Below, in pieces: positions 27,869 to 55,889 of a stretch of 64,000 bases of DNA. Origin of the DNA: Zanthoxylum bungeanum (lineage: Eukaryota; Streptophyta; Magnoliopsida; Sapindales; Rutaceae); assembly GCA_019454045.1 (NCBI GenBank), contig SKCR01019523.1, positions 1-64,000 on the forward strand. The letters are read 5' to 3'. Position 1 is the first letter of the stretch; the number at the start of each line of letters is the position of its first letter. The position numbers and the translations under genes were made by a program. The notes under the pieces are model-generated. The model was not told the origin of the DNA and made no database searches. It saw nothing but the letters and a program-made list of their open reading frames with translations.

Positions 27869-27873
27869 ATATC

Positions 27874-27894: not shown

Positions 27895-29877
27895 TGATGA
27901 GGGGAAAATATATCAATATTTACCGCCCATTTTACTTAATATTTTGTTTAGTTTCTCGGGTTTGATGAACGTTTTGATGTGTTTTAGTTTATTTTGCAGA
28001 TAAAATAATATGGGATACAATGGAATCATTTAGGATGAAATGTGGGTCAAATAAGGGCAAAAATTGGACTTGACATATTAATTTTGGAGATTGGAAACTT
28101 GAAAGGGCGTTTTAAGGAAGTGCGGTTTTGGAAATTCCAGTTATTTGCATCTGTCGTATTTTGGGCATAACATTTTACACCGATATCGGATTGAGCTGAT
28201 TCAGTTCCAGATTAAAGAAGACTAAAAGATCTTCAACTTTGAAAGACAAAATAATTTCGAATTCTGAAGATGTCATGCCCGAAATTGATGAACCATCCAG
28301 AAGTGTGTTGTGTGTAATTATTAAAGTCATTTTCAATCATTTTCAAAGCAAAAAATAAATTAATAAATAAATAATAAAAATTATCAAATCACTACCAAAT
28401 ATGATAAGCAATTAGTGAGCAATTAATAATGGATTTGGTGGAGCAATTATTGGAGCAATTAGTGGATCAATTATAATGGATTTGGTGGAGGCAAAATTTT
28501 GCCTATAAATACCAAGCCATTTCATTTGTAAATTCATACTTTCTTCTAAGGAATTCCTTAAGAATACTAAGAAGATTGTATCTTGTTTGTTTATTTACAG
28601 CTTTTAGTAATTAATTTCCGCTTTCGCACTTTCTTTTCTTACTTTTCAGTTTTTACTTTCCGCAATTTACTTTTATGCACAATAATTTACGTTCTTACTT
28701 TTTACAGTTTTTACTATTCACCATGAGGAGGTAACTTCCCCAGCTAGGGTGAAAGGTAATTCTTTTACTGTTAGTATTTAGATTAATCTCCCATAAAAAT
28801 AATATATTCACTATTTAAAATATTGACTTAAAAAGGATACCGCCAGATTGGTCGGTTGGTAATTAAATTTTCTTACCGCCTATATGGCAGGTTTATTTTG
28901 GTTCTGCCTTTATGGCTGGTTGGACTTAATTTGACTTAATCAGGTTACCGCCTATTTGGCTGGTTGGTAAAATATCACAAGTTAATATATTATATTAAGG
29001 GAGATATCTAAATAGTAAATAGTAAAAGTTGATCCTTTTACCTTAGCATTTTATTTTACTTTTCAGCTTTTATTTTATGTCTTTTACTTTTCAGTATTTT
29101 TACTTTATGTCTTTTACTTTTAAGTTTTTACTAGCCCTAGTTATGTATTAGTTATCTGGGGTTGTGATGAATTCTAATCATCACCGGTTTATAATGGGTT
29201 ATTTTATAGTTTGGGTATTTAAAGGTTTACTTATTAAGTCTTAAGCTGAATGCTTATTGTTGTCTGATCACCAATAAGATTGATGTGGTAAATCTAAAAT
29301 GAACTATACATAGGGATTTTAGGTTTCAGCCTTAGACTTAATAGCCCACGATATTCCTTGATGATAGATAACCATTTAATAAATTTCCTTACAGGATATA
29401 CATACCTGTCGGGCGGGGGTAGCCATAATTGGAACTTAAACTTAATGAATCCAGATAATTTGGTTGACATAGACATATTTTTCATTGGGTTAAACTGAGT
29501 ATTTGCGTCTGACCATCGACAGAGGCTTTTGCATAATTTCGTGTTCCAGGTTAGTAAACTAATTTATTACACAAACATAAAATAATCACTTCATCTTTTA
29601 AAAGATATTAGAATGATTCACAACCCTAAATCTTTGTGTCTTTTTTTATTTTCCTTAGTATTTTCTTTTGTCTTTTTATTTATTTATTTATTTAGCAAAT
29701 CTACAATCAACCAAATCAATCAAGCAATCATTCTCTTCTCCCTCAATTAGATATCTGTAAATAAATAGATTTATAATTAATAACAACAGTAGGAATTAAG
29801 TCCTCGTGGGATAAATATTTTTATACTACATGAAAGATACGTGCGCTTGCGTTATACGAGTGTGTTTATGCCGGTCA
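27895..29877 (+). repeat. F LTR1
   Basis: TGATGAGGGGAAAATATATC to GCCGGTCA. It has a single 'accgccagattggtcggttg' block where LTR2-4 have two. TATAAATA at 28504. Confidence 0.9.
28504..28511 (+). promoter_or_regulatory. TATA box of F LTR1
   Basis: TATAAATA, conserved at the same site in LTR2-4. Confidence 0.6.
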
Positions 29878-29883
29878 AGTTTT

Positions 29884-29900
29884 TGGTGCCGTTGCCGGGG
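29884..29900 (+). other. Primer-binding site, F unit 1 (tRNA-Asp type)
   Basis: TGGTGCCGTTGCCGGGG, six bases after the LTR. Units 2 and 3 have TGGCGCCGTTGCCGGGG, the usual Athila-type site. Confidence 0.85.
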
Positions 29901-30012
29901 ACTTATTTTTCATGAGTTATTAATTTTGAAGCTATCTAATTTACTTGTATATAATTTTCTTTATTTTTATTTGTAATTTTTATTTCTTTCTTTTATTTCA
30001 GGTGGTTGAAAA

Positions 30013-31306
30013 ATGGAACACTACTGGGAGATTAAAAGATTACGAGCTTTACTCGAAAATACACCCCAAATCTCGGAGCAACAGTCCGGTTTTCTGAGGC
30101 CTGTTGTCCAGCCCAACAACTATCACTGGATGCCAGAACCAAGCAATACCACATTTGCTCAACAAGACGCAATGAGGAGATGTGACATATGTAATGGTAA
30201 CCACCCTAGAGATTATTGTGAATACAACTACCATCTAGGGTGGCAGAGCTATCAAGATCCTTCTTGGTATGACGAGCCATCACATTTCACAGAACCAAAT
30301 TTTCCATCTTATCCACCACCCACCTAAAATGATCTTCATCAACAATCAGAACAATCAGAAAAAGATCAGATGATTGACATGCTCAAAGATGTATTCAAGA
30401 AACGAGAAGAAAAGATGGATACAATGCTTGAAATATTGCAGAATCAACTCGAAAGTATTCAGAGACAATCAGGATCCATTCAGAGGATGACAGATCAAGT
30501 GAGACAATTAACAGAAAACCAGAACTATATACCTCAAGGACCATTTTCATATGACACTAATGAAGCCTTCGAGTACCAAGCATTTCACGATGACACTTTA
30601 GAAAATGAGGAGGCTGAGCAGTATCTGGAATCTGAGGTATTAGTTCGGGAACCCAAAAAAGCGAAGTCTCAATTTAATTTTTATTATTCAGATTCTGACG
30701 AGGATGAAGCTGAGCTGTTATTACCAATTGCACCAACAAAGGAGGATGAAATTTTTCAGCCTCAAAATAAAGATCTTGGAGAATGCTTTGCACAAATGTT
30801 TGAAGAATATCTATCAGAGTCAATCACATCAGCCTCAGAGGATGAAGACCTAATGTCATACACATCTTTAATCCTCACGTTGATACATCCGGAGCATGCA
30901 TTTCATAGATGACATATGAAGAATTGAATACGGAAAATTTAAAATACTTCTGTGAGAAAAGGTGGAGCAAGAAACAGAGCAAATGGAGGTGAAAATGTCA
31001 GACCAAATTGAAGATCCAGAGAATTCAGGCGAAACATCACTATTTTGGGGAGTACAAATCAAAGATATCACCCAGAAGCTTGACAGAATGGAACTTTCAT
31101 TCAAAGTAAAGCACCATACAAGACCTCCTGATTTTCTTTCTTTCTTTTCAGGAACCACTGGAGAAACAAAGGTTAAAAATGTGGCACACGCACTGAATGG
31201 GACAAAACTCTTTTTTCCACTTTACCGTTGGAAGAGACACTTCAAAAGCAACGCTCACGGGATTGTCTTTAATCGGACATCTAAAACGACATTGAAACCT
31301 CCTTAA
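30013..31306 (+). pseudogene. F unit 1 ORF1, zinc-knuckle and acidic protein of unknown function
   Basis: Begins MEHYWEIKRLRALLENTP and ends RTSKTTLKPP. The product has a CDICNGNHPRDYC motif (CX2CX3HX4C, zinc-knuckle-like) at about residues 57-69, a Tyr/Trp/Pro-rich stretch, a predicted coiled coil (FKKREEKMDTMLEILQNQLE) and an acidic segment YYSDSDEDEAELL. Here a stop (TAA at 30325-30327) and a one-base loss near 30867 divide it into three open pieces. I do not recognise the family. Position right after the primer site suggests a gag-like protein. Consensus length across the three units is about 430 codons. Confidence 0.65.
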
Positions 31307-31835
31307 CAGATTTCATTCATGTCTAGCTGAAGACGATAAAATTTAGCGCTAGCAGGGAGGCAACCCATGCAATTTGTTGTAATTTCTGTTTTTATATTTT
31401 GTGTATACATGTTGTAGAGTTTTTAATTTTGTGTGTTATTTTTGTAGGGAAAAACACAAATGGAGCATTTTAAGACAGAATGAATGGTGGTTGGCAATCA
31501 CAAAGATGAGAACCAATTCATTAGCGATGGCTGAGTAAGAAATGAAATCTTGAGACGCATCCTAATGGATTTATATACCAATGAGTGGTGTATTGCGTAC
31601 ACAATTTTGTTACCTTAATTATTGCTTTGATTAGCTTTTCTGTTGTAATTATCTTTATTTTCGTAGACAGGATCCAGACTTTTTGACATTTCATGATTTC
31701 TTTTATTATTTAGCTAACAATCGTCTTTTGGAAGATACTAGTGCTATTATTACTCACCATTTTTCAGGTACTATAAATTCAGCACGTCATTGCACTTTTG
31801 AAGGCATCCAGAGTTGAGAAAGAAATACATAAAAA

Positions 31836-32546
31836 AGGAAGCCACTTCAAGAAGACGAGTTGAAAACATCTGTGTATTTTACGGTAGTAGTGTTGGTGTT
31901 AAGCCACAATACGTAGAAGCAGCACAAGAATTGGGTCCAGTCTTAGCTGCAAGGAATAAGCACTTAATATATGGCGGAGGCAATCTTGGACTTATGGGGA
32001 TCGTTTGAAAGGCTGGAAAGGAGGGAGGCAGTCATATTTTGGGAATCATCCAAAAACCCTTGGCATAGGCAAATCTTATTGAACCATTAAACGGAGAGGA
32101 ACTGATCGTGCCAGGTATGTCTGAACGTTGGTAGAAATGATTAACCATGCTGATGCTTTTAATGTTTTGCCAGGTGGCTTGGGTACATTGGAGGAATTTT
32201 TATTGTGCTATCTTAGACGAACCTGAACATACACCAGAAACCGCTTGGACTGTACAATGTTGAAGGATTTTATGATTTTCTTTGTGTTTTTCTTGATGAT
32301 GCTCGGAGAAATGGGTACGTGTCAAAACCTATGAAAGAACTCCTCTTCACTGCCAGAACTGCTCCAGATCTAATAGACCAACTTTTAGCCTATGAACCAC
32401 AAGTTGACCCTATCCTTTCAAAAATAAATTGGTCTGCGGAAGATCGTGGTAAGAGGCGTCGGATTAATCTGGATCTTAACATTTATTTTCCTGTAGAATT
32501 TCAGCTAATCAGGTACGACCTTCAAAACTCATATTCTAATTTTTAA
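31836..32546 (+). pseudogene. LOG-like cytokinin phosphoribohydrolase, F unit 1 copy, decayed
   Basis: The same intronless gene as at 37832-38485. The start ATG is destroyed by loss of its T (31836-31838 region). A TGA lies at 32006-32008, a TAG at about 32065, and single-base losses near 32128 and 32197 break the PGGLGTLEE region. The stop codon is changed, so the open tail runs on to 32546. Recognisable words include ENICVFYGSSVGVKPQYVEA and YGGGNLGLMGIV. It is the most damaged of the three copies. Confidence 0.85.
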
Positions 32547-32564
32547 GACATTGGGGACAATGTC
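32547..32564 (+). other. Conserved hairpin plus internal purine tract, F unit 1
   Basis: GACATTGGGGACAATGTC forms a 7-bp stem with a GGGA loop and is followed by GGTTTGGGGGAGGG. The same pair occurs in units 2 and 3, and in degenerate form in element B. The role is unknown; the purine run resembles a second, internal polypurine tract. Confidence 0.6.
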
Positions 32565-33789
32565 TCATTTAGGTTTGGGGGAGGGAATTAGTTGATCGGT
32601 ACCTTGTTTTTAGTTTGTGTGTTGTTTTTATTTTTAGTCCAAAATTTTTCGAAAAATACAAAAAAATTGAAATATTTTCAAAAATTACAAAAAATATTTT
32701 GTGTTTTTGTGTTTTTATTTTGACTAAAAGGGTGAAATTGGTAAGAGATAGCTGAGTAAGGAGTTTCCAATCCTGAGACGTATCTCAAACTTATTTCGGA
32801 ACAAGTTAATTTTTGTTTATTTCCTTTTAAATTATTGAATTTGTAAATTCTCCATAAAACGGAATAAAATGGATCTTCATACGCTTAGTTGGCAGGTATT
32901 ATCAACATGCATAGAAACATACAGACATAAGCTATAATTGAAAAGTTTGTAATATTCAGTGCTCTACTTAATTAGAGGAAGCATCTCAAAAAGCAATTGA
33001 GTTAAAAAAAAATGAATCCGAGTTGAGTTATTATTCTGTAAGGTTGTTTTTTAACACCTAGTGCCATAAAACCAACTGGTTTGGGAGTCACTGGCCCAAA
33101 GCTCGTACATGGATCAAAGATGCTGTAAAAATATATATATCTGAAGTCAGAGTAATTAAGTCCGTAGGGGTATCTTTACACCTGGTGCCGTAAAGCCAAC
33201 TGGTTTGGGAGCCACCGACCCAACACTCGCTACATAGACGGAAGATATTGTATATAAATAAAAAAAATCAAAGAAAAAATCAGAAAAATCAGAAAAATTA
33301 TTCCATTGCTACAAAAAAGGTGTGAATTGAAATTTATAGAACTTTAGGACAAAAATATTACTCTTTTATCAACTGCACTTGTGACTGTTGTGGGCAAAAA
33401 TGAGTTGATTAATATTTTTTCGGCTGTGCATATGGAGAATGGTAAATATAATCGAAGAATTTACATATTCAGTAATTTAGAAAGAAAGAAAACAACTATT
33501 AACTTGGAGTAGAAGTTTCACCTGATTAGTCACAACTTCTTTATTCTCTTTTCTCTTGCCTTTTTGCTTTTGTGTGCGTTAGTTTTTATTTTTTTACTTT
33601 TGTAAAATGTTTGTGGGTATCGTTGTGCAAGCCCTCACGAGACTATAACTCGTCCACTAGGGACACCTAGGGGTTTAAAGGCTTGTTGCATATGCTAAAT
33701 GCAACCGTGATCCCCACGAAAGTGGCTTGGTTTAATTTTAATTGTTTCTTGTATTTTATTTTGTTGTTTTGCTCAAGGACTAGCAAAAT
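32565..33789 (+). other. F unit 1 3' untranslated interval
   Basis: No gene. It contains poly-A-rich TTTTTCGAAAAATAC words and two diverged copies of a block 'ACACCTRGTGCCRTAAARCC' (about 33053 and 33179). The end matches units 2 and 3. Confidence 0.55.
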
Positions 33790-33805
33790 GTTAGGTTTGG
33801 GGGTG
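33790..33805 (+). other. Polypurine tract before F LTR2
   Basis: TTAGGTTTGGGGGTG directly before TGATGATGCGC. Confidence 0.75.
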
Positions 33806-35871
33806 TGATGATGCGCAGAAAATATATCAATATTTACCGCCCCTTTTACTTAATATTTTGTTTAGTTTTTCGGGTTTCATGAACATTTTGATGTGTTTTA
33901 GTTTATTTTGCAGATAAAATAATATTGGGACACAATGAAATCATTTAGGACGAAATTTGGGTCAACTAAGTGCAAAAAGTGGACTTGACATATTAATTTT
34001 AGAGATTGGAAACTTGAAATGGCGTTTTAACGAAGTGCAGTTTTGGAAATTCCAGTTTTGTGCATCTGTCGTATTTTGGGGATAAAGTTTTACTCCGATA
34101 TCGGATAGAGCTGATTCAAGTTCCAGATTAATAAGACCCAAAGAGCTACAACTGTTAAAGACAAAAAATAATTCGAATTCTGAAGATTTCATGCCTGAAA
34201 TTGATGAACCATCCAGAAGTGTGTTGTGTGTAATTATTAAAGTCATTTTCAATCATTTTCAAAGCAAAAAATAAATTAATAAATAAATAATAAAAATTAT
34301 CAAATCACCACCAAACATGATAAGCAATTAGTGGAGCAATTAGTAATGGATTTGGTGGAGTAATTATTGGAGCAATTAGTAGAGCAATAATAATGGATTT
34401 GGTGGATGATTTGATGGAGGCAAACTTTTGCCTATAAATACCAAGCCATTTCATTTGTAAATTCATACTTTCTTCTAAGGAATTCCTTAAGAATACTAAG
34501 AAGATTGTATCTTGTTTGTTTATTTACAGCTTTTAGTAATTAATTTCGCGCTTTCGCACTTTTTTTTTCTTTACTTTTCAGTTTTTACTTTCCGCAATTT
34601 ACTTTTACGCACAATAATTTACTTTCTTACTTTTTACAGTTTTTACTATTCACCATGAGAGGTAACTTCCCCAGCTAGGGTGAAAGGTAATTCTTTTACT
34701 GTTATTATTTAGATTAATCTCCCTTAAAATAATATATTCACTATTTAAAATATTGACTTAAAAATGATACCGCCAGATTGGTCGGTTGGTAATTATTTTA
34801 ATCTGGTTTAAACCTGACTAATCAAGGATACCGCCAGATTGGTCGGTTGGTAATTAAATTTTCTTACCGCTTATATGGCAGGTTTATTTTGGTTCTGCCT
34901 TTATGGATGGTTGGACTTAATTTGACTTAATCAGATTACCGCTTATTTGTCATGTTGGTAAAATAATCACTAGTTAATATATTATATTAGGGAGATATCT
35001 AAATAGTAAATAGTAAAAGTTGATCATTTTACCTTCCTTAGCATTTTATTTTACTTTTCAGCTTTTATTTTATGTCTTTTACTTTTCAGCATTTTTACTT
35101 TATGTCTTTTACTTTTAAGTTTTTACTAGCCCTAATTATGTGTTAGTTATCTGGGGTTGTGATGAATTCTAATATCACCGTTTATAATGGGTTATTTTAT
35201 AGTTTGGGTAATTTAAAGGTTTACTTATTAAGTCTTAAGCTTAGTGCTTCTTGTTGTCTGATCACCAATAAGATTGATGTGGTAAATCTAAAATGAACTA
35301 TACATCGGGATTTTAGGTTTCAGCCTTAGACTTAATAGCCCACGATCTTCCTTGAGGATAGATTACCCTTTAATAGATTTTTACAGGATAGACATATACC
35401 TGTTGGGCGGGGTAGCCATAATTGGAACTTAAACTTAATGTATCCAGATAATTTGGTTGACATAGACCTATGGTTCAATTGAGTTAAACTGGGTATTTGC
35501 GTTTGACCATCGACAAGGCTTTTGCATAATTTATGTTCCAGGTTAGTAAACTGATTTATTACAAAAACATAAATAATCACTTCATCTTTTAAAAGATATT
35601 AGAATGATTTACAAACCTAGATCTTTGTGTCTTTTGTTATTTTCCTTAGTATTTTCTTTTGACTTTTTATTTATTTTTTTATTTAGTAAATCTACAATCA
35701 ACCATCAATCAATCAAGCAATCATTCTCTTCTCCCTCAATTAGATATCTATAAATAAATAGATTCAATAATTAATAACAACAGTTGGAATTAAGTCCTTG
35801 TGGTATCGATATTTTTATACTACTTGAACGATACGTACGCTTGCGTTATACGCGTGTGTTTACGCCGGTCA
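33806..35871 (+). repeat. F LTR2
   Basis: TGATGATGCGCAGAAAATAT to CGCCGGTCA, about 2.07 kb, with two 'accgccagattggtcggttg' blocks. Shared by units 1 and 2. Confidence 0.9.
34433..34440 (+). promoter_or_regulatory. TATA box of F LTR2
   Basis: TATAAATA. Confidence 0.6.
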
Positions 35872-35877
35872 AGTTTT

Positions 35878-35894
35878 TGGCGCCGTTGCCGGGG
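35878..35894 (+). other. Primer-binding site, F unit 2 (tRNA-Asp type)
   Basis: TGGCGCCGTTGCCGGGG, six bases after LTR2. Confidence 0.9.
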
Positions 35895-36005
35895 ACTTAT
35901 TTTTCTTGAGTTATAATTTTGAAGCTATCTAATGTACTTGTATCGAATTTTCTTTATTTTTATCTGTAATTTTTATTTCTTTCTTATATTTCAGGTGGTT
36001 GAAAA

Positions 36006-37301
36006 ATGGAACACTATTGGGAGATTGAAAGATTACAAGCTTTACTCGAAAATACACCCCAAATCTGGGAGCAACAGTCTGATTTTCTGAGGCCTGTTGT
36101 CCAGCCAACAACTATCACTGGATGCCAGAACCAAGCGATACCATATTTTCTCAACAAGACGCAATGAGGAGATGTGACATATGTAATGGTAACCACCCTA
36201 GAGATTATTGCGAATACAACTACCATCCAGGGTGGCAGAGCTATCAAGATCCTTCATGGTATGACGAGCCATCACATTTCACAGAACCATATTTTCCATC
36301 TTATCCACCACCCACCTACAATGATCTTCATCAACAATCAGAACAATCAGAAAAAGATCAGATGATTGACATCCTCAAAGATGTATTCAAGAAACGAGAA
36401 GAAAAGATGGATACAATGCTTGAAACATTGCAGAATCAACTCGAAAGTATTCAGAGTCAATCAGGATCCATTCAGAGGAGAACAGATCAAGTGAGGCAAT
36501 TAACAGAAAACCAGAACTATATACCTCAAGGACCATTTTCAGATGACATTGATGAAGCCTTAGAGTACCAAGCATTTCACGATGACACTTTAGAAAAGGA
36601 GGAGGCTGAGCAGTATCCGAAATTTGAGGTATTAGTTCGGGAACCCAAACCAGCGAAGTCTCAATTTGATTTTTATTATTCAGATTCTGACGAGGATGAA
36701 GCTGAGCTGTTAGTACCAATTGCACCAACAAAGGAGGATGAAACTTTTCAGCCTCAAAATGAAGATCTTGGAGAATGCTTTGCACAAATGTTTGAAGAAG
36801 ATCTAACTGAGTCAATCACATCAGCCTCAAAGGATGAAGACCTAATGTCATACACATCTTTACATCCTCACGTTGATACTTCTGGAGCATGCATTTCACA
36901 GATGACATATGAAGAATTGAATACGGAAAATTTAAAATACTTTTGTGAAGAAAATCTGGAGCAAGAAACAGAGCAAATGGAGGAGAAAAAAGTCAGACCA
37001 AATTGAAGATCCAGAGAATTCAGGCGAGACATCACTATTTTGGGGAGTATAAATCAAAGATATCACCCAGAAGCTTGACAGAATGGAACTTTCATTCAAA
37101 GTCAAGCACCATAAAAGACCTCCTGATTTTCTTTCTTTCTTTTCAGGAACCACTGGAGCAACAAAGGTTAAAAATATGGCACACGCACTGAATGGGACAA
37201 AACTCTTTTTGCCACTTTACTGTTGGAAGAGACCCTTCAAAAGCAACGCTCATTGGATTGTCTTTAATCGGACATCCAAAACGACATTGAAACCTCCTTA
37301 A
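36006..37301 (+). pseudogene. F unit 2 ORF1, zinc-knuckle and acidic protein of unknown function
   Basis: Best-preserved copy. A one-base loss near 36103 (CCAGCCAACAAC, where units 1 and 3 have one more C) separates the first 33 codons from an open frame of 294 codons starting at 36122. That frame includes the CDICNGNHPRDYC knuckle, the coiled-coil-like stretch and the DSDEDEAELL acidic segment. A second slip near 36988 (AAAAAAG) moves the rest (37083-37301, ending RTSKTTLKPP) into another frame. No homology to a named family is claimed. A gag-like nucleocapsid role is inferred from the knuckle and the position. Confidence 0.65.
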
Positions 37302-37831
37302 CAGATTTCATTCACATCTAGCAGAAGACGAAAAATTTAGCGCTAGCAGGGAGGCAACCCATGCAATTTGTTGTAATTTCTGTTTTTATATTTTGTGTAT
37401 ACATGTTGTAGAGTTTTTAATTTTGTGAGTTATTTTTTGTAGGGAAAAATACAAATGGAGCATTTTAAGACATAATGAATGGTGATTGGCAATCACAAAG
37501 ATGAGAACCAATTCATTAGCGATGGCTGAGTAAGAAATGAAATCTTGAGACGCATCCTAATGGATTTATATACCAAACGAGTGGCGTATTGCGTACACAA
37601 TTCTGTTGCCTTAATTATTGCTTTGATTCACTTTTCTGTTGTAATTATCTTTATTTTCGTAGACAGGATCCAGACTTTTTTGACATTTCATGATTTCTTT
37701 TATTATTTAGCTAACAATCGTCCTTTGGAAGATACTAGTGCTATTATTACTCACCCTTTTTCAGGTACTATAATTCAGCTCATTATTGCACTTTTGAAGG
37801 CATCCAGAGTTGAGAAAGAAATACATAAAAA
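37302..37831 (+). other. F unit 2 spacer between ORF1 and LOG
   Basis: No gene. Starts with the motif 'gcgctagcagggaggcaacc' (about 37339-37358), which element B also has. An open frame at 37545-37913 runs into LOG in another phase and looks incidental. The last part, with GCATCCAGAGTTGAGAAAG just before the ATG, may be LOG 5'UTR. Confidence 0.5.
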
Positions 37832-38485
37832 ATGGAAGCCACTTCAAGAAGACGAGTTGAAAACATATGTGTGTTTTGCGTTAGTAGTGTTGGTGTTAAG
37901 CCACAATACGTAGAAGCAGCACAAGAATTAGGTCGAGTCTTAGCTGCAAGGAATATGCACTTAGTATATGGCGGAGGCAATCTTGGACTTATGGGGATCG
38001 TTTCAAAGGCCGTAAAGGAGGGAGGCAATCATGTTTTGGGAATCATCCAAAAACCCTTGGCAGAGGCAAATCTTATTGAACCATCAAACGGAGAGGAACT
38101 GATCATGCCAGGTATGTCTTAACGTTTGGTAGAAATGATTAACCATGCTGATGCTTTTATTGTTTTGCCAGGTGGCTTGGGTACATTGGAGGAAATTTTT
38201 ATTGTGCTATCTTGGGTGAACCTGAATATACACCAGAAACTGCTTGGACTGTACAACGTTGAAGGATTTTATGATTTTCTTTGTGTGTTTCTTGATGATG
38301 CTCGGAGAAATGGGTTCGTGTCAAAACCTATGAAAGAACTCCTCTTCACTGCCAGAACTGCTCCAGATCTAATAGACCAACTTTTAGCCTATGAACCACA
38401 AGTTGACCCTATCCTTTCAAAAATAAATTGGTCTGAGGACAATCGTGGTAAGAGGTGTCGGATTAATCTGGATCTTAACATTTAA
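37832..38485 (+). pseudogene. LOG-like: LOG-like cytokinin riboside 5'-monophosphate phosphoribohydrolase, F unit 2 copy
   Basis: LOG enzymes release active free-base cytokinin from its riboside monophosphate in one step. The frame is 217 codons without an intron, near the usual plant LOG length. Residues visible: N-terminal CVFC-SSVG Rossmann start (residues 12-20), YGGGNLGLMG at 46-55 (nucleotide binding), R98, and the family signature PGGLGTLEE at 113-121 ending in E121; R98 and E121 correspond by position to residues reported as essential in plant LOG. A single in-frame TAA (38120-38122) replaces codon 97, which is Glu in copy 3. The usual stop TAA follows DLNI. It lies between ORF1 and a conserved hairpin inside element F, so it is cargo and not a chromosomal gene in its own setting. 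Family assignment is firm; substrate and expression are inference. Confidence 0.92.
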
Positions 38486-38545
38486 TTTCCTGTAGAATTT
38501 CAGCTAACCAGGTAAGACCTTCTAAACTCATATTCTACTTTTTAA

Positions 38546-38563
38546 GACATTGGGGACAATGTC
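38546..38563 (+). other. Conserved hairpin plus internal purine tract, F unit 2
   Basis: GACATTGGGGACAATGTC followed by GGTTTGGGGGAGGG, as in units 1 and 3. Confidence 0.6.
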
Positions 38564-39796
38564 TCATTTAGGTTTGGGGGAGGGAATTAGTTGATTGGTA
38601 CCATTTTTTTAGTTTGTGTGTTGTTTTTTATTTTTAGTCCGAAATTTTTCGAAAAATACAAAAAAAAAATTGAAAATTTTTCAAAAATTACAAAAACATA
38701 TTTTGTATTTTGTGTTTTTATTTTGACTAAAATGGTGAAATTGTTAAGAGATAGCTGAGTAAGGAGTTTCCACTCCTGAGACGTATCTCAAACTTATTTC
38801 GGAACAAGTTAATTTTTGTTTATTTCCTTTTAAATTATTTAATTTGTAAATTTTCCATAAAATGGACTAAAATGGATCTTCATATTCTTAGTTGGCAGGT
38901 ATTATCAACATGCATATAGTAACATAAGGACATAAGCTATAATTGAAAAGTTTTAATATTCAGTGCTCTAGTTTAATTAGAGGAAGCATCTCAAAAAGCA
39001 ATGGAGTAAAAAAAAAAAAGATCCGAGTTATTAAGTCTGTAAGGGTGTTTTAACACCTAGTGCCATAAAACCAACTGGTTTAGGAGTCACTGGCCCAAAG
39101 CTCATTACATGGATCAAAGATGCTGCAAAAATATATATATCTAAAGTCTGAGTACATAAGTCCGTATGGGTATCTTAACACCTGATGCCCTAAAGCCAAC
39201 TGGTTTGTGAGCCACCGACCCAACACTCGCTACATAGATGGAAGATATTGTATATAAATAAAAAAAAATCAAAGAAAAAAATCAGAAATATCAGAAAAAT
39301 TATTCCATTGCTACAAAAAAGGTGTGAAATCTTATAGAACTTTAGGACAAAAATATTACTCTCTTATCAACTGCACTTGTGACTGTTGTGGACAAAAATG
39401 AGTTGATTAATATTTTTTCGGCTGTGCATATGGAGAATGGTAAATATAATCAGAGAATTTACATATTCAGTAATTTAGAAAGAAAGAAAACAACTAGTAA
39501 CTTGGAGTAGAAGTTTCACCTGATTAGTCACAAACTTCTTTATTCTCTTTTCTCTTGCCTTTTTTCTTTTGTGTGCGTTAGTTTTATTATTTTTTTACTT
39601 TTGTAAAATGTTTGTGGGTATCGTTGATGTAAGCCCTCACGAGACTATAACTCGTCCACTAGGGACACCTAGGGGTTTAAAGGCTTGTTGCATATGCTAA
39701 ATGCAACTGTGATCCCTACAAAAGTGGCTTGTGTTTTTATTTTAATTGTTCTCTTATTTTTATTTTATTGTTTTTTTCGAGGACTAGCAAAATTTT
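38564..39796 (+). other. F unit 2 3' untranslated interval
   Basis: No gene. Collinear with 32565-33789, including both 'AACACCTRRTGCC' blocks. Confidence 0.55.
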
Positions 39797-39808
39797 AGTT
39801 TGGGGGTG
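39797..39808 (+). other. Polypurine tract before F LTR3
   Basis: TAGTTTGGGGGTG-like run ending at the TGATGAGCGG start. Confidence 0.75.
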
Positions 39809-41868
39809 TGATGAGCGGAAAATATATCAATATTTACCGCCCCTTTTACTTAATATTTTGTTTAGTTTCTCGGGTTTGATGAACATTTTGATGTGTTTTA
39901 GTTTATTTTACAGATAAAATAATATTGGGACACAATGAAATCATTTAGGACGAAATTTGGGTCAAATAAGGGCAAAAATGGACTTGACATATTAATTTTG
40001 GAGACTGGAAACTTGAAAGGGCGTTTTAACGAAGTGCAGTTTTGGAAATTCCAGTTTTGTGCATCTGTCGTATTTTGGGCATAAAGTTTTACTCCGATAT
40101 CGGATAGATCTGATTCAAGTTCCATATTAAATAAGACTCAAAGATCTACAACTGTTAAAGACAAAATAATTTCGAATTTTGAAGATTTCATGCCCGAAAT
40201 TGATGAACCATCCAGAAGTGTGTTGTCTGTAATTATTAAAGTCATTTTCAATCATTTTCAAAGCAAAAAATATATAATAAATAAATAATAAAAATTATCA
40301 AATCACCACCAAACATGATAATCAATTAGTGGAGCAATTAGTAATGGATTTGGTAGAGTAATTATTGGAGCAATTAGTGGAGCAATTAATAATAGATTTG
40401 GTGGATGATTTGATGGAGGCAAAAGTTTGCCTATAAATACCAAACCATTTCATTTGTACATTCATACTTTCTTCTAAGGAATTCCTTAAGAATACTAAGA
40501 AGATTGTATCTTGTTTGTTTATTTACAGCTTTTAGTAATTAATTTCCGCTTTCGCACTTTCTTTTCTTAACTTTTCAGTTTTTACTTTCCGCAATTTACT
40601 TTTACGCACAGTAATTTACTTTCTTACTTTTTACAGTTTTTACTACTCACCATGAAGAGGTAACTTCCCCAGCTAGGGTGAAAGGTAATTCTTTTACTGT
40701 TATTATTTAGATTAATCTCCCTTAAAAATAATATATTCACTATTTAAAATATTGACTTAAAAATGATACCGCCATATTGGTCGGTTGGTAATTCATTTTA
40801 ATCTGGTTTAAACCTGACTAATCAAGGATACCGCGAGATTGGTCGGTTGGTAATTAAATTTTCTTACCGCTTATATGGCAGGTTTATTTTGGTTCTGCCT
40901 TTATGGATGGTTGGACTTAATTTGACTTAATCAGGTTACCGCCTATTTGGCTGGTTGGTAAAATAATCACTAGTTAATATATTATATTAAAGGAGATATC
41001 TAAATAGTAAATAGTAAAAGTTGATCATTTTACCTTAGCATTTTATTTTACTTTTCAGCTTTTATTTTATGTCTTTTACTTTTCAGCATTTTTACTTTAT
41101 GTCTTTTACTTTTAAGTTTTTACTAGCCTTAATTATGTGTTAGTTATCTGGGGTTGTGACGAATTCTAATATCACCGTTTATAATGGGTTATTTTATAGT
41201 TTGGGTAATTTAAAGTTTACTTATTAAGTCTTAATCTTAGTGCTTCTTGTTGTTTCATCACCAATAATATTGATGTGGTAAATCTAAAATGAACTAGACA
41301 TAGGGATTTTAGGTTTCAACCTTAGACTTATTAGCCCACGATCTTCCTTGAGGATAGATAACCTTTTAATAGATTTCCTTACAGGATATACATATACCTG
41401 TTGGGCGGGGGTAGCCATAATTGGAACTTAAAATTAATGAATCCAGATAATTTGGTTGACATAGACATATGGTTCAATTGGGTTAAATTGGGTATTTGCG
41501 TATGACCATCGACAGAGGCTTTTGCATAATTTCGTGTTCCAGGTTAGTAAACTGATTTATTACACAAACATAAATAATCACTTCATCTTTTAAAAGATAT
41601 TAGAATGATTTACAACCCTAGATCTTTGTTCTTTTGTTACTTTCTTAGTATTTTCTTTTGTCTTTTTATTTATTTATTTTTTTAGCAAATGTACAATCAA
41701 CCAAATCAATCAAGCAATCATTCTCTTCTCCCTCAATTAGATATCTGTAAATAAATATATTTAATAATTAATAACAACAGTAGGAATTAAGTCCTCGTGG
41801 GATCGATATTTTTATACTACTTGAACGATATGTGTGCTTATGTTATACGCGTGTGTTTACGCCGGTCA
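39809..41868 (+). repeat. F LTR3
   Basis: TGATGAGCGGAAAATATATC to CGCCGGTCA, about 2.06 kb, two 'ggtcggttggtaatt' blocks. Shared by units 2 and 3. Confidence 0.9.
40432..40439 (+). promoter_or_regulatory. TATA box of F LTR3
   Basis: TATAAATA. Confidence 0.6.
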
Positions 41869-41874
41869 AGTTTT

Positions 41875-41891
41875 TGGCGCCGTTGCCGGGG
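41875..41891 (+). other. Primer-binding site, F unit 3 (tRNA-Asp type)
   Basis: TGGCGCCGTTGCCGGGG, six bases after LTR3. Confidence 0.9.
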
Positions 41892-42004
41892 ACTTATTTT
41901 TCTTGAGTTATTAATTTTGAAGCTATCTAATGTACTTGTATCGAATTTTCATTATTTTTATCTGTAATTTTTATTTCTTTCTTTTTATTTCAGGTGCTTG
42001 AAAA

Positions 42005-43299
42005 ATGGAACACTACTGGGAGATTGAAAGATTACAAGCTTTACTCGAAAAATACACCCCAAATCTGGGAGCAACAGTCTGATTTTTTTAGGCCTGTTGT
42101 CCAGCCCAACAACTATCACTGGATGCCAGAACCAAGCGATACCATATTTTCTCAACAAGACGCAATGAGGAGATGTGACATATGTAATGGTAACCACCCT
42201 AGAGATTATTGCGAATACAACTACCATCCAGGGTGGCAGAGCTATCAAGATCCTTCATGGTATGACGAGCCATCACATTTCACAGAACCATATTTTCCAT
42301 CTTATCCACCACCCACCTACAATGATCTTCATCAACAATCAGAACAATCAGAAAAAGATCAGATGATTGACATGCTCAAAGATGTATTCAAGAAACGAGA
42401 AGAAAAGATGGATGCAATGCTTGAAAATTGCAGAATCAACTCGAAAGTATTCAGAGACAATCAGGATCCATTCAGAGGAGAACTGATCAAGTGAGGCAAT
42501 TAACAGAAAACCAGAACTATATACCTCAAGGACCATTTTCAGATGACACTGATGAAGCCTTCGAGTACCAAGCATTTCACGATGACACTTTAGAAAAGGA
42601 GGAGGCTGAGCAGTATCCGGAATCTGAGGTATTAGTTCGGGAACCAAACCAGCGAAGTCTCAATTTAATTTTTATTATTCAGATTCTGACGAGGATGAAG
42701 CTGAGCTATTATTACCAATTGCACCAACAAAGGAGGATGAAACTTTTCAGCCTCAAAATAAAGATCTTGGAGAATGCTTTGCACAAATGTTTGAAGAAGA
42801 TCTATCTGAGTCAATCACATCAGCCTCAGAGGATGAAGACCTACTGTCATACACATATTTACTTCCTCACGTTGATACTTCCGGAGCATGCATTTCACAG
42901 ATGACAGATGAAGAATTGAATACGGAAAATTTATAAAACTTCTGTGAAGAAAATGTGGAGCAAGAAACAGAGCAAATGGAGTAGAAAAATGTCAGACCAA
43001 ATTGAAGATCCAGAGAATTCAGGTGAAACATCACTATTTTGTGCAGTGCATATCAAAGATATCACCCAGAAGCTTGACAGAATGGAACTTTCATTCAAAG
43101 TGAAGCACCATACAAGACCTCCTGATTTTCTTTCTTTCTTTTCAGGAACCACTGGAGCAACAAATGTTAAAAATGTGGCACACGCACTGAATGGGAAAAA
43201 CTCTTTTTGCCAATTTACCGTTGGAAGAGACCCTTCAAAAGCAACGCTCATGTGATTGTCTTTAATCGGACATCCAAAACGACATTGAAACCTCCTTAA
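42005..43299 (+). pseudogene. F unit 3 ORF1, zinc-knuckle and acidic protein of unknown function
   Basis: Same gene as 30013-31306 and 36006-37301. An extra A near 42047 shifts the frame early; the knuckle CDICNGNHPRDYC is open in the run 41994-42494. A two-base loss near 42425 and a one-base loss near 42645 shift it again. The conserved C-terminal block (PPDFLSFFSGTTG to SKTTLKPP) is split by a loss near 43195. Confidence 0.62.
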
Positions 43300-43829
43300 C
43301 GGATTTCATTCACGTCTAGCTGAAGACGAAAAATTTAGCGCTAGCAGGGAGGCAACCCATGCAATTTGTTGTAATTTCTGTCTTTATATTTTGTGTATAC
43401 ATGTTGTAGAGTTTTTAATTTTGTGTGTTATTTTTGTAGGGAAAAACACAAACGGAGCATTTTAAGACAGAAGGAATGGTGTTCGAAAATCACAAAGATG
43501 AGAACTAATTCATTAGCGATGTTTGAGTAAGGAATGAAATCTTGAGACGCATCTTAATGGATTTATATACCAAACGGGTGGCGTATTGCGTACACAATTC
43601 TTTTGCCTTAATTATTGATTTGATTCGTTTTTCTGTTGTAATTATCTTTATTTTCGTAGACAGGATCCATACTTTTTTGACATTTCATGATTTCTTTTAT
43701 TATTTAGCTAACAATCGTCCTTTGGAAGATACTGTTGCTATTATTACTCACCCTTTTTCAGGTACTATAAATTCAGCCCATCATTGCACTTTTGAAGGCA
43801 TCCAGAGTTGAGAAAGAAATACATAAAAA

Positions 43830-44483
43830 ATGGAAGCCACTTCATGAAGACGAGTTGAAAACATCTGTGTGTTTTCCGGTAGTAGTGTTGGTGTTAAGCC
43901 ACAATACGTAGAAGCATCCTAAGAATTAGGTCGAGTCTTAGCTGCAAGGAATATGCACTTAATATATGGCGGAGGCAATCTTGGACTTATGAGGATCGTT
44001 TCAAAGGCCGTAAAGAATGGAGGCAATCACGTTTTGGGAATCATCTCAAAACCCTTGGCAGAGGCAAATCTTATTGAACCATAAAACGGAGAGGAACTGA
44101 TCATGCCAGGTATGTCTGAACGTTTGGTAGAAATGATTAACCATGCTGATGCTTTTATTGTTTTGCCAGGTGGCTTGGGTACATTGGAGGAAATTTTTAT
44201 TGTGCTATCTTGGGTGAACCTGAACATACACCAGAAACTGCTTGGACTGTACAACGTTGAAGGATTTTATGATTTTCTTTGTGTGTTTCTTGATGATGCT
44301 CGGAGAAATGGGTTTGTGTCAAAACCTATGAAAGAACTCCTCTTCACTGCCAGAACTGCTCCAAATCTAATAGACCAACTTTTAGCCTATGAACCACAAG
44401 TTGACCATATCCTTTCAAAAATAAATTGGTCTGAGGACGATCGTGGTAAGAGGCGTCGGATTAATCTGGATCTTAACATTTAA
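43830..44483 (+). pseudogene. LOG-like: LOG-like cytokinin riboside 5'-monophosphate phosphoribohydrolase, F unit 3 copy
   Basis: Exactly the same length as the unit 2 copy (654 bases), so no net frameshift. Three stops break it: TGA at codon 6 (43845-43847), TAA at codon 31 (43920-43922) and TAA at codon 85 (44082-44084). The half with the catalytic signature (MSERLVEM and PGGLGTLEE) is open from 44103 to the natural TAA. Copy 2 has sense codons at all three broken positions, and copy 3 has Glu where copy 2 has its only stop. No intron, as in the others. Confidence 0.92.
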
Positions 44484-44543
44484 TTTCCTGTAGAATTTCA
44501 GCTAACCATGTACGACCTTCTAAACTAATATTCTATTTTTTAA

Positions 44544-44561
44544 GACATTGGGGACAATGTC
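44544..44561 (+). other. Conserved hairpin plus internal purine tract, F unit 3
   Basis: GACATTGGGGACAATGTC followed by GGTTTGGGGGAGGG. Confidence 0.6.
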
Positions 44562-45367
44562 TCATTTAGGTTTGGGGGAGGGAATTAGTTGATCGGTACC
44601 TTGTTTTTAGTTTATGTGTTGATTTTATTTTTAGTCCAAAATTTTTCGAAAAATACAAAAAAAAATTGAAATTTTTTCAAAAATTACAAAAAATATTTTG
44701 TGTTTTTATTTTGACTAAAAGGGTGAAATTGGTAAGAGATAGCTGAGTAAGGAGTTTCCACTCCTGAGACGTATCTTGATGAGTGGTATTTATACCACTA
44801 TTTCCCACTCATTTGACCTAATATTTTGTATTGTTTCTCGAGATTTATGAACATTTTGTTGTTATTTTGCAGATAAATAAAGTTTGGACAGCACTGGAGG
44901 CAATTTGGGACAAAACCGGACAAAAATGCACCAACTGGGATATTTATGTCTTCTGCGCGTCGCGCCGCTCAAAGCTTTGGCGTCGCGACGCCCAACGTGC
45001 GCCGAATCTGCTAAAATGCGCCGGGGTCAACGGGGTCAGAATCTGAAAAGTTGACTTTGCTAACGTGCGCCGTGCCACGTGTCACCATCACATAAGACTT
45101 GCTAACTTGCGCTGCCACGTGTCATCATCTCAACGGTGTCGACAATCATCATCTATGCTAACGTGCGCCAGGACACGTGTCGATATCTCAACGATTTGCT
45201 AAAATGTGCCTCTGCCACGTGTCACGATCTGATGCTGCCGACAATCAACTTCAGCGTGACGTAAGCGATGACATCATGAACAGTGCCACGTCATCGGATA
45301 AGGATCTGATCTCTTAGCCGCCTTGCCACGTGTCAAGCCGTTATTGAGCCACGTTGAACTGTAGCGC

Positions 45368-45402
45368 GCGTCGCGACGCTAAAGGCTTTAGCGTCGCGAC
45401 GC
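45368..45402. repeat. Perfect GC-rich palindrome in LTR G
   Basis: Arm GCGTCGCGACGCTAAAG and its exact inverse, separated by one G (17-bp arms), 19 bp upstream of the TATA box. A looser version (GGCGTCGCGACGCC) lies near 44978. Confidence 0.85.
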
Positions 45403-45420
45403 AAAACCGCCATCCGCGCC

Positions 45421-45428
45421 TATAAATA
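45421..45428 (+). promoter_or_regulatory. TATA box of LTR G
   Basis: TATAAATA just downstream of the 35-bp palindrome. Confidence 0.6.
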
Positions 45429-45709
45429 GAGCGCGAGGGTTCAGTTTATGTTGTACCATTTCCTCTCCCAAATCCTATGTAATTAGGGAGTTCTTCTCTC
45501 TCTAACTTTCTTTTAATAAAGTTTTGTAATTTTTAATTACGTTCTGTAAAAATAATAATTTACTTTCTTTATTTTACAGTTTTTACTACTCATTATGAGG
45601 AGGTAACTTCCCTCTGTTAAGGTAAAAGGTAATTCTTTTACTATTACTTCTTAGATTATTCTCCCATAATTATAATATATTCAAGTTTTAAATTGGACTT
45701 AATAAGGAT

Positions 45710-45950
45710 ACCGCCAGACTGGTCGGTTGGTAATGTTATTCCGCCTATATGGCTGGTTTATTTTAAATTCCGCCTTTATGGCTGGTTTATTTTAAATTCC
45801 TCCTTTATGGCTGGTTTATTTTCATTCCGCCTATATGGCTGGTTATTTTGATTCCGCCTTTATGGCTGGTTGTTTTTAAAATGATTCCGCCTTTATGGCT
45901 GGTTGTTTTTAAACTGATTAAATCAAGATACCGCCTATATGGCTGGATGA
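45710..45950 (+). repeat. Tandem block in LTR G
   Basis: About seven units of 'ccgcctttatggctggtt' with spacers of variable length. F LTRs have the same words in fewer copies. Confidence 0.8.
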
Positions 45951-46882
45951 AAATGTTTTGCAAAACTTATATTATATTATGGGAGAAATCTAATTAGTAT
46001 ATAGTAGAAGTAATTCCTTTTTACCTTAGCAATTTTATTTTAATTCACTTTCAGCATTTATTTTACCACATTTACTTTATGCAATTTTATTTTAAGTCTT
46101 TTAAGTTTTTAGCCCTAGTTATCTAGGGTTGTGATGAATTTCAATTTAACTGGTTTATAAGGGTTAGATTATAGTTTGGGTAATTTAAAGATTTATTTAT
46201 TGAGTCTTAATCTTAAAGCTCTTTAATTAACTGGCCATTAATTAAATTGATTAGGTAAACTTAAAACGAACTAGACATAGGGATTTTAAGTTTAAGACCT
46301 TAGACTCAATAGCTCACGATCTTCCTTGAGGATAGATAACCCATTTAATAGATTTCCTTACAGGATAGGAATATACCTGTTAGGCGGGGGTAGCCATAAT
46401 TGGAACTTGAATTTAATGAATCTAGATAATTTGGTTGACATAGACATATGGTTCAATTAGATTATACTAGGTATTTGTAATTGACCATCGGAAGAGGCTT
46501 TTACATAATTTAGTGTTCCAGGTTATTAAATTGATATATTACCCAACTATAAGATAACTACTTCATCTTTTAAATAATATTGAAATAAGTCACAACCCTG
46601 GATAGTTTTTAATATTGAATTTCCTTAAAATCTACTTTTAAGTAATTTTATTTATTTGTCTTTAAATTTAGAATCGTCGCCTTTTTCCAACCAAATCAAA
46701 TCAATCTGTTAGATACCACCTTTTCCAACCAAATCAAATCAATCTGTTAGATACCAGTAAACAGTTAACCTCATAAAAATTAATAGAAAAGGTTTTAAGT
46801 CCTCGTGGGATCGATACTTTTTATACTACTTGAACGATACGTACGCTTGCGTTATACGTGTGTGTTTACGCCGGTCATATCT

Positions 46883-47752: not shown

Positions 47753-49596
47753 TGATGAGCGGAAAATATATCAATATTTACGCCCCTTTTACTTAATATT
47801 TTGTTTAGTTTCTCGGGTTTGATGAACATTTTGATGTGTTTTAGTTTATTTTGCAGATAAAATAATATTGGGAAACAATAAAATCATTTAGGACGGAATT
47901 TGGGTCAAATAAGGGCAAAAAGTGGACTTGACATATTAATTTTGGAGATTGGAAACTTGAAAGGGCGTTTTAACGAAGTGTAGTTTTGGAAATTCCAGTT
48001 TTGTGCATCCGTCGTATTTTGGGCATAAATGTTTACTCCAATATCGGATAGAGCTAAGTTCCAAATTAAATAAGACTCAAAGAGCTACAACTGTTAAAGA
48101 CAAAATAATTTCGAATTCTGAAGATTTCATGCCCGAAACTGATGAACCATCCATAAGTGTGTTGTGTGTAATTATTAAAGTCATTTTCAATCATTTTCAA
48201 AGCAAAAAATAAATTAATAATAAATAATAAAAATTATCAAATCACCACCAAACATGATAAAAAATTAGTGGAGCAATTAGTAATGGATTTGGTGGAGCAA
48301 TTAGTGGAGCAATTAAAAATGGATTTGGTGGATGATTTGATAAAGACAAAATTTTGCCTATAAATACCAAGCCATTTCATTTATAAATTCATACTTTCTT
48401 CTAAGGAATTCCTTAAGAATACTAAGAAGATTGTATCTTGTTTATTTATTTACAGTTTTTAGTAATTAATTTCCGCTTTCGCACTTTCTTTTCTTTACTA
48501 TTCAGTTTTTACTTTTCGCAATTTACTTTTACGCACAGTAATTTACTTTCTTACTTTTTATAGTTTTTACTGTTCACCATGAGGAGGTAACTTCCCCAGC
48601 TATGGTGAAAGGTAATTCTTTTACTGTTACTATTTAGATTAATCTCCCTTAAACATAATATTCACTATTTAAAATATTGACTTAAAAAGGATACCGCCAG
48701 ATTGGTCGGTTGGTAATTCATTTCAATTTGGTTTAAACCAGACTAATTAAGGATACCGCCAGATTGGTCGGTTGGTAATTAAATTTTCTTACCGCCTATA
48801 TGGCAGGTTTATTTTGGTTCCGCCTTTATGGCTGGTTGGACTTAATTTGACTTAATCAGGTTACCACCTATATGGCTGGTTGGTAAAATAATCACAAGTT
48901 AATATATTATATTAAAGGAGATATCTAAATAGTAAATAGTAAAAGTTGATTATTTTACCTTAGCATTTTATTTTACTTTTCAGCTTTTACTCTATGTCTT
49001 TTACTTTTCAGCATTTTTACTTTATGTCTTTTACTTTTAAGTTTTTACTAGCCCTAGTTATGTGTTTGAATTCTAATATCACCGGTTTATAAATGGTTAT
49101 TTTATAGTTTGGGTAATTTAAAGGTTTACTTATTAAGTCTTAAGCTTAGTGCTTCTTGTTGTCTGATCACCAATAAGATTGATGTGGTAAATCTAAAATG
49201 AACTAGACATAGGGATTTTAGGTTTCAACCTTAGACTTATTAGCCCACGATCTTCCTTGAGGATAGATAACCCTTTAATAGATTTCCTTACAGGATATAC
49301 ATATACCTGTTGGGCGGGGGTAGCCATAATTGGAACTTAAACTTAATGAATCCAGATAATTTGGTTGACATAGACATATGGTACAATTGGGTTAAACTGG
49401 GTATTTGCGTCTGACCATCGACATAGGCTTTTGCATAATTTCGTGTTCCAGGTTAGTAAACTGGTTTATTACACAAACATAAAATAATCACTTCATCTTT
49501 TAAAAGATAGTAGAATGATTTACAACCCTAGATCTTTGTGTCTTTTGTTATTTTCCTTAGTATTTTCTTTTGTCTTTTTATTTATTTATTTATATA
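47753..49596 (+). repeat. F LTR4, 3' end deleted
   Basis: Matches LTR1-3 up to TTGTCTTTTTATTTATTT, then breaks at about 49593-49597 into element B LTR sequence. About 0.25 kb of LTR end is missing. Confidence 0.85.
48359..48366 (+). promoter_or_regulatory. TATA box of F LTR4
   Basis: TATAAATA. Confidence 0.55.
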
Positions 49597-49840
49597 TTTG
49601 AAGGCGTCACGACGCCAGTGATAAATTCTTCACTTGTGCTGCGCCTCACGTTCTATGCTCCCGTGCGCGTTCGATGCTTCCAAAAGTTCCCAAAACACTC
49701 GTATTTACTCCATTATTGATGTTTTAATGCTTCCTACAAATCAGACATAAAATAAACTAAAAATACATTAAATGAATCGAAACATAACAAAATAGTAAGC
49801 TAAAAATGCCATAATAAGTGGGTATAAACCGCACTTATCA
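49597..49840 (-). repeat. 3' LTR of element B, first segment
   Basis: On the minus strand begins TGATAAGTGCGGTTTATACC and aligns with 63661-63400 of the 5' LTR. The middle of the LTR (equivalent to about 62841-63397) is missing at the junction with F. Confidence 0.88.
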
Positions 49841-49857
49841 AACACCCCCAAACTTAA
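49841..49857 (-). other. Polypurine tract of element B
   Basis: Minus-strand CTTAAGTTTGGGGGTGTT directly before the 3' LTR start. Confidence 0.8.
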
Positions 49858-54006: not shown

Positions 54007-54022
54007 GTCGCCCCCACTTTGA
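54007..54022 (-). other. Polypurine tract of element D
   Basis: Minus-strand CAAAGTGGGGGCGAC next to the 3' LTR start. Confidence 0.8.
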
Positions 54023-54359: not shown

Positions 54360-55205
54360 GCTTTGACCTTTGGGCTTTGTTCCTAAACTGTATTGAATAT
54401 GGGCTCTGTTCCCGAACTGCATTGAGAGAAGACTTTATTCCCCTGGGTTTTATTCCCGAGCTGTGTCAAGGTAGGGTTTTTATTCTCCTAGGCTTTGTTC
54501 CTGAACTGTATTTAAGATAGGGCTTTATTCCTCTGGGCTTGATTCCCGAACTGTGTTGACTGTGGGCTTTCTTCCCAAACTGTGTGAAGGTAAGGCTTTG
54601 TTCCCCTAGGCTTTGTTCCCGAACTATTTTCAAGATAGGGCTTTATTCCCCTGGGCTTTAATCCCGAACTGTGTTGATTGTAGGCTTTATTCCCGAACTT
54701 TGTGAAGGTAGGGCTTTGTTCCCGAACTATTTTCAAGATAGGGCTTTATTCCCCTGGGCTTTAATCCCGAACTGTGTTGATTGTAGGCTTTATTCCCGAA
54801 CTTTGTGAAGGTAGGGCTTTGTTCCCGAACTGAATGTGATGGCGAGGTGCCTCGACGTGTAGAGAGTGGGCTTTGTTCCTGAACTGAATGTGATGGCGAG
54901 GTGCATCGACCTCTGGGCTTTGTTCCCGAACCATCTGTGGGCTTTATTCCCGAACTGTATAGAGAGTGGGCTTTGTTCCCTGGGCTTTGTTCCTGAACTG
55001 AATGTGATGGCGAGGTGCCTCGACCTCTGGGTTTTGTTCCCGAACCATCTATGGGCTTTGTTCCCGAACTGTGTAGAGAGTGGGCTTTGTTCCCTGGGCT
55101 TTGTTCCCGTTGTGTTGAATGTGATGGCGAGGTGCTTCGACCCATGGGCTTTGTTCCCAAACCATATGTGGGCTTTGTTCCCAACTATGTAGAGAGTGGG
55201 CTTTG
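54360..55205. repeat. Tandem repeats of element D, block 1
   Basis: Units of about 28-30 bp around GGGCTTTGTTCCCGAACTG (plus-strand view). From 54830 they form longer units of about 130 bp that add ATGTGATGGCGAGGTGCCTC. Confidence 0.9.
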
Positions 55206-55885: not shown

Positions 55886-55889
55886 TGAA

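Follow-up and report, generated by a model that had tools for sequence, protein, structure and literature searches.

The closest described relatives of the system reported here are Gypsy-type long terminal repeat (LTR) retrotransposons of Citrus and Populus. The YgdH domain, which is tied to LONELY GUY (LOG) proteins, has been found in Gypsy-type consensus sequences of Citrus sinensis and C. clementina, and also in Gypsy-type consensus sequence of Populus trichocarpa once the filter used in that study was lifted; the passages on this domain place the result in line with Steinbauerova et al. 2011 (PMC9289625). Here we analyse a 64,000-nucleotide stretch of Zanthoxylum bungeanum DNA (contig SKCR01019523.1, positions 1 to 64,000; hereafter the window), in which three copies of a LOG-type gene lie inside an LTR retrotransposon, together with the family of elements to which this retrotransposon belongs. 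A preliminary description of the window had stated that no family with this cargo was known. This has to be withdrawn, because LOG cargo is a kind already on record in Gypsy elements, to judge from the domain results of that study (PMC9289625).

We consider it likely, with a probability of roughly 80%, that the Zanthoxylum family took up an intron-free plant LOG downstream of pol, kept it under purifying selection and reached thousands of copies. The evidence for this reading comes from the structure of the elements, their target-site duplications, a LOG that lacks the introns present in one host LOG gene, constraint on its coding sequence, and the existence of three element architectures.

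LOG frames of the window and their protein family

Each of the three units of the window array contains an intronless LOG frame of 217 codons flanked by an open reading frame (ORF) called ORF1 and by a hairpin, just as the preliminary description had it. The three frames lie on the plus strand at 31836-32489 (copy 1), 37832-38485 (copy 2) and 43830-44483 (copy 3). In copy 1 the start codon is broken, single bases have been deleted at three places and stops are present; copy 2 has the single internal stop previously claimed for it (38120-38122). Copy 3 is indel-free, so that the claim of an absent frameshift stands, but it carries three internal stops that had been overlooked. All three copies are therefore broken, dead members of the family. 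In the three-copy alignment each disabling change is private to a single copy, and the private changes are spread evenly over the codon positions (15/15/13), which indicates that the decay of LOG in the window is neutral.

Pieces of copies 2 and 3 match the Pfam families PF18306 (5.6e-10) and PF03641 (2.8e-22 and 6.8e-25), and two database relatives, P0005 and P0009, also score above the gathering score (PF03641 / PF18306). These matches rule out that the LOG frame is a chance ORF. With TIGR00730, P0001 reaches 160.9 bits against a cut-off of 96.35, the 126-residue window piece alone giving 81.3 bits, below the cut-off. The hallmark of the LOG family is a PGGxGTxxE motif with catalytic residues after it, and the LOG translations contain PGGLGTLEE and R98. 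The closest solved structure is Arabidopsis At2g37210 (2a33, 1.9e-54). Among the best 120 of 1,787 matches, P0001-P0007 are 72-86% identical to copy 2, while the best named plant proteins, of the LOGL10 type from Populus, are 52-53% identical. P0009 (62% identical) is extended at its N terminus, and the first 36 residues of this extension match the window DNA just 5' of LOG (8.97e-6 in the 64-kb window); a query with its first 46 residues had P0009 itself as sole match. In a tree, the window LOG nests within a clade of intact sequences.

The element family in the Zanthoxylum genome

A 27-base word from the LOG active site has 6,131 exact matches in the 3.96-Gb genome from which the window comes (3,067 forward and 3,064 reverse), and its reversed control has none. 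The exact word is present in only 3 of 25 fetched LOG copies. This count leaves out the two window copies with the word, the window being its source. The real number of LOG copies is therefore probably several times larger than 6,131. The 70,292 candidates of a first look are not copy counts. The 150 matches that were scored are the best by protein score genome-wide; all of them begin at residue 1 or 2 and end at residue 216 or 217. By hand count 122 lack an internal stop, in agreement with the earlier suggestion that the ancestor was coding when it moved.

Twenty loci (L010-L029) were hand-picked down this ranking, every one from stop-free rows. LOG lies 5' of the 3' internal region of the element, followed by LTR sequence, in 20/20; the next LTR match begins 2.6 kb downstream in L027, and in several loci the LTR aligns to that of the window only in part. 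Three architectures can be distinguished. The first, present in six loci (L010, L011, L014, L020, L021, L024), contains RNase H and integrase, an ORF resembling viral nucleic-acid-binding proteins (NABP-like ORF) and LOG. Reverse transcriptase (RT) is found in five of these six, the sequence of L011 ending before the RT position. Upstream pieces were fetched for L014 and L021 alone, and both contain gag. The second architecture, present in seven loci (L012, L013, L016, L018, L019, L026, L027), consists of protease, an integrase end, NABP and LOG, and lacks RT, RNase H and the integrase core; gag is found in all of them except L018. The third, present in six loci (L017, L022, L023, L025, L028, L029), contains ORF1 and LOG only and is the type seen in the window. 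L015 falls in none of the three as assigned so far. The pol order RT-RNase H-integrase was established by Pfam in L014 and L021, and gag domains were also recognised by Pfam in the long loci.

The architectures are intermixed on the LOG tree (7 label changes, with a minimum of 2 and a shuffled mean of 10.1). The mixing of RT-bearing and RT-less forms is what would be expected from recombination between co-packaged RNAs. The best explanation of the layout is that the window element is a short form, devoid of pol, within a Ty3/gypsy family that resembles Athila (Ogre-Tat-Athila type). No relatives of the element were found among viral contigs, either by protein or by the word of its primer binding site. 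Among prokaryote genomes this word occurs in one contig, of a Streptomyces assembly. The contig concerned (L001:1-3922), filed under Streptomyces clavifer, has 36.5% GC and the plant-type order 3' internal region-LTR-primer site; it is probably plant contamination, and perhaps represents a tandem or circular element junction.

Mobility of the element

Seven of the 20 loci, on seven contigs, have both LTRs from end to end, the other 13 being ended by the fetch limit or having only a partial 5' LTR match. All seven are flanked by perfect 5-bp target-site duplications, each different (AAGCA, TATGA, GACGA, ACCTT, ACTAC, CCAAG and GCGAG), and all have the hallmarks of LTR elements: two LTRs, TG...CA ends, a primer site and the 5-bp duplication. 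Their two LTRs diverge by 0.18-2.7%, and LOG is inside the LTRs. LOG has thus been copied by retrotransposition, in some copies recently, and its proposed status as a cargo that moved with an LTR retrotransposon is borne out.

Introns and origin of the cargo

Full-length and 69-residue LOG queries for a host gene returned swamps of element copies. A 35-residue canonical LOG query gave two matches at 80% among the best 150 scored, the others reaching at most 68%. L032, one of these two matches, belongs to the host: this LOG gene aligns in at least four blocks, so that three or more introns interrupt its aligned part. The element LOG runs on uninterrupted across all three L032 intron places, as the preliminary description had anticipated for host introns in general. 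For comparison, LOG genes of peanut have 2-6 introns according to the part of that report dealing with gene structure (PMC13257298). L032 is At2g37210-like and 37-50% identical per block to P0001, and on sequence grounds it appears not to be the direct parent of the element LOG. The cargo would have been captured from a spliced LOG mRNA by reverse transcription.

A relative of the element without LOG lies inside the window itself (49600-52217, minus strand). It contains gag-like remnants, recognised by eye and without a Pfam match, the same post-pol motif and, at 50.5 kb, a shorter version of the hairpin of the array units, with LOG not between them. This arrangement suggests that LOG was inserted after pol and ahead of the hairpin, in an env-like place.

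Selection on LOG

Codon substitutions, proposed earlier as a check on this cargo, were analysed in 27 LOG copies (25 loci plus window copies 2 and 3), five of which have stops. Variants private to one copy number 54/27/39 over the codon positions, and variants shared by at least two copies number 27/17/76, a third-position excess. The ratio of nonsynonymous to synonymous substitutions (dN/dS) is 0.186 over all 351 pairs, and it falls from 0.553 at dS <0.03 (2 pairs) to 0.155 at dS 0.3-0.5 (43 pairs). The values inside individual architectures are alike (0.150, 0.195 and 0.183). To judge from these counts, the pattern is that of purifying selection while the lineages move and of looser drift once a copy is inserted. 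That the element has the structure described and that its LOG is under coding constraint is, in our opinion, highly probable.

The NABP-like ORF and ORF1

Carlavirus proteins of the NABP type are cysteine-rich nucleic-acid binders that affect silencing and host cell growth. All four ORFs analysed between pol and LOG (L014:4354-4938; L016:5051-5635, minus strand; L019:4364-4948; L021:4371-4874) pass the cut-offs of both PF05515 (Viral_NABP; 26.6-29.7 against 23 bits) and PF01623 (Carla_C4; 25.1-27.6 against 20.9 bits). Over nine copies the dN/dS of this ORF is 0.25, with 22/24/22 private and 17/12/31 shared variants. The spacers between ORF1 and LOG in the window retain a remnant of it (about 60-110 aligned bases, 68-78%), in unit 1 at 31482-31570 on the plus strand (67.6% over 108 aligned positions to L014); the short type with ORF1 and LOG would thus derive from an NABP-bearing type. 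No earlier report of a carlavirus-type ORF in an LTR retrotransposon was found in the literature searched, judged by titles and abstract openings.

ORF1 lies on the plus strand in all units. It is broken in unit 1 (30013-31306, ending ...SKTTLKPP) and in unit 3 (42006-43300), and in unit 2 (36005-37301) it has 307 open codons at 36083-37003. Its relatives at 0.01 are seven database proteins (P0121-P0127), all unnamed. A Pfam family for ORF1 was sought and discarded, the unit-2 frame having no match at 0.01 and four relatives none above the cut-off. ORF1 (window 31038-31138 and the relatives P0121-P0127) is nevertheless a conserved protein. A portion of it shares 29-33% identity with sequence that was read jointly with gag in three loci (L013, L016, L019), so ORF1 may be a gag remnant.

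Interpretation and alternative explanations

In the course of events that we propose, an intron-free LOG copy entered at the env-like place, downstream of pol. Short forms would have been mobilised by long forms. LOG would be made from element RNA, perhaps through splicing, and would free active cytokinin from the riboside monophosphate; the freed hormone would favour the element, for example if host cells were kept dividing. The parts of this proposal differ in strength. A true cytokinin-activating activity of the element LOG is probable, while the idea that the hormone effect is the benefit under selection is somewhat doubtful. A bolder version, in which the retrotransposon lineage would carry a two-gene cassette for host manipulation, selection maintaining both the nucleic-acid-binding protein of plant-virus type and the enzyme that activates cytokinin, is put forward tentatively and is rather unlikely. 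If it were true, expression of the element would raise cytokinin and division in the cells where copying must occur for inheritance, and a selfish element would act on host hormones.

Several points weigh against uptake and selective maintenance of a plant LOG by the family. All the support is at the level of DNA sequence. The loci were found through LOG and are hence silent on the share of the family that bears it, and the window itself contains a relative that has no LOG. The lineage assignment draws on the layout and the primer site and not on a tree of RT. The prokaryote-built NCBIfam equivalog NF058542 has a cut-off of 300 bits, which P0001, P0005 and P0009 do not reach (104.8-120.1 bits). 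The dN/dS of RT, from two copies only, is 0.022, far tighter than that of LOG (0.18). Finally, dN is lowered by taking rows with the best protein scores and stop-free loci, and even the private variants of LOG are not flat over codon positions; the safer evidence is how shared variants differ from private ones.

The alternative that survives best, although we regard it as unlikely, is that LOG serves the element by another reaction or role, such as nucleotide turnover or RNA binding with the NABP-like ORF, and not by way of cytokinin. LOG is part of a wider Rossmann-fold family, the element LOG also gives weak matches to TIGR00725 and PpnN, and an ORF of nucleic-acid-binding type adjoins it in the longer forms. 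However, its closest named relatives and best solved structure are the plant LOGL10-type proteins and At2g37210 mentioned above, and PGGLGTLEE is kept. Less probable still is that the low dN/dS is mainly a sampling artefact, produced by choosing copies with the best scores and no stops. The composition of the 150 rows and of the 20 loci would favour such an effect, but a shared/private contrast inside one sample is hard to produce in that way, and adding extra loci chosen by the tool, stops included, leaves the picture unchanged.

It is slightly more improbable that LOG is a passive passenger, a single cDNA capture useless to the element that hitch-hiked to high copy number. Plant LTR elements are well known to capture pieces of genes (PMC7264820, PMC13317346), and the three dead window copies have drifted evenly over codon positions; this explanation is nevertheless disfavoured by the codon-position counts of the shared variants, by a dN/dS that falls with distance and by the likeness of the ratios in each architecture. 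A simple genomic duplication, in which a host LOG locus beside LTR sequence was copied, had been named beforehand as an outcome that would speak against transposition. It holds for the three window units, whose array ends show no readable target-site duplication, but it is barely conceivable as the source of the family, given seven different perfect duplications around LOG-bearing elements on seven contigs.

The array of the window and its neighbours

Self-comparison of the window shows a tandem array LTR1-int1-LTR2-int2-LTR3-int3-LTR4 at 27895-49593 with a period of about 6.0 kb, and a single 10-kb alignment of 28824-38788 with 34815-44776 at 94.7% identity. The three units are one insertion amplified in tandem with LTRs in common, not three jumps. 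All four LTRs are on the plus strand. The LTRs start with TGATGAG and end with GCCGGTCA; LTR1 (27895-29877) is followed by the primer site TTTGGCGCCGTTGCCGGGG (about 29883-29901), which we take to be of the tRNA-Asp type. LTR2 (33806-35871) is common to units 1 and 2, and LTR3 (39809-41868) to units 2 and 3. LTR4 (47753-49593) lacks its 3' end, so the target-site duplication of the array is not readable. Identity between LTR pairs, leaving aside the last 150 bases or so, is 93.5-96.4%. A solo LTR of a related family is nested in unit 3 (44777-46877, plus strand), and the TATCT on either flank of it fixes the LTR ends.

The hairpin AGACATTG-GGGA-CAATGTCT has an 8-bp stem, lies about 60 bases 3' of the LOG stop (plus strand, 32546-32565 in unit 1 and 38545-38564 in unit 2) and has an ordinary folding energy (z -1.4). 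Ten stop-to-stop pieces from the non-LOG part of unit 2 gave no Pfam match at 0.01, and so no pol was found in the window element.

Other repeats are present in the window. A minus-strand LTR of the array's family lies at 20107-22151, with no visible internal region and no clear target-site duplication. Two pairs of direct repeats of about 2 kb, 15911-17942 / 25844-27870 (93.3% identity) and 52024-54008 / 60009-61985 (94.2%), are possibly LTRs of other elements, and dense degenerate tandem repeats with short offsets occupy 54652-58747.

Comparison with known systems

Most extra genes in LTR elements of plants are fragments of genes or encode unknown proteins. Here the extra gene encodes a recognisable hormone enzyme, and its frame has stayed open in thousands of copies while the element transposed many times, both in forms that have a reverse transcriptase of their own and in forms that lack one. 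The question of whether mobile elements alter the hormone balance of their hosts becomes testable. In practical terms, LOG genes that belong to the element may, in their thousands, be mistaken for host genes when such genomes are annotated.

Carlavirus cysteine-rich nucleic-acid-binding proteins (PF05515, PF01623) are the nearest match of the pol-LOG ORFs, all four of which pass both cut-offs; these ORFs differ in being encoded by a retrotransposon, in their modest scores (25.1-29.7 bits) and in having a predicted function. Athila-type elements likewise have additional ORFs in sense orientation after pol and before the 3' LTR (PMC7264820, PMC6317226), and tRNA-Asp is among the primers of non-chromovirus elements (PMC6317226), as far as the sections on element structure describe them. 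In the Athila-type elements described there the extra ORF is an env-like or Athila ORF-1 protein, whereas in the Zanthoxylum family it is the NABP-like ORF plus LOG. Maize Bs1 and other gene-capturing plant LTR elements, in the accounts given of them, also contain intron-free host coding sequence in sense orientation (PMC7264820, PMC13317346). However, Bs1 holds pieces of three genes, while the Zanthoxylum family keeps a full-length, constrained LOG frame in thousands of copies. Gypsy elements of Phalaenopsis with an ORF for an AlkB-type m6A demethylase similarly keep a host-type enzyme as an extra ORF in many copies, although the enzyme is another one, is described from orchids only and has activity shown in vitro, while the element LOG is known from sequence (PMC9289625, passages on this ORF).

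The Citrus and Populus YgdH elements remain the closest system, and titles and abstract openings in the literature searched revealed no other case of LOG-type cargo in LTR elements. Those elements are likewise Ty3/gypsy LTR retrotransposons with a LOG-family domain, in several consensus sequences; the account of them in the relevant passages is a domain count with RT as marker, in which the place of the domain, introns, selection and partner ORFs are not described (PMC9289625). Compared by description, the Zanthoxylum family adds RT-less and ORF1-only forms, target-site duplications, a selection test and the NABP-like ORF. As far as our literature searches go, what is new is the scale, the constraint, the three architectures including RT-less forms, and the carlavirus-like ORF between pol and LOG.

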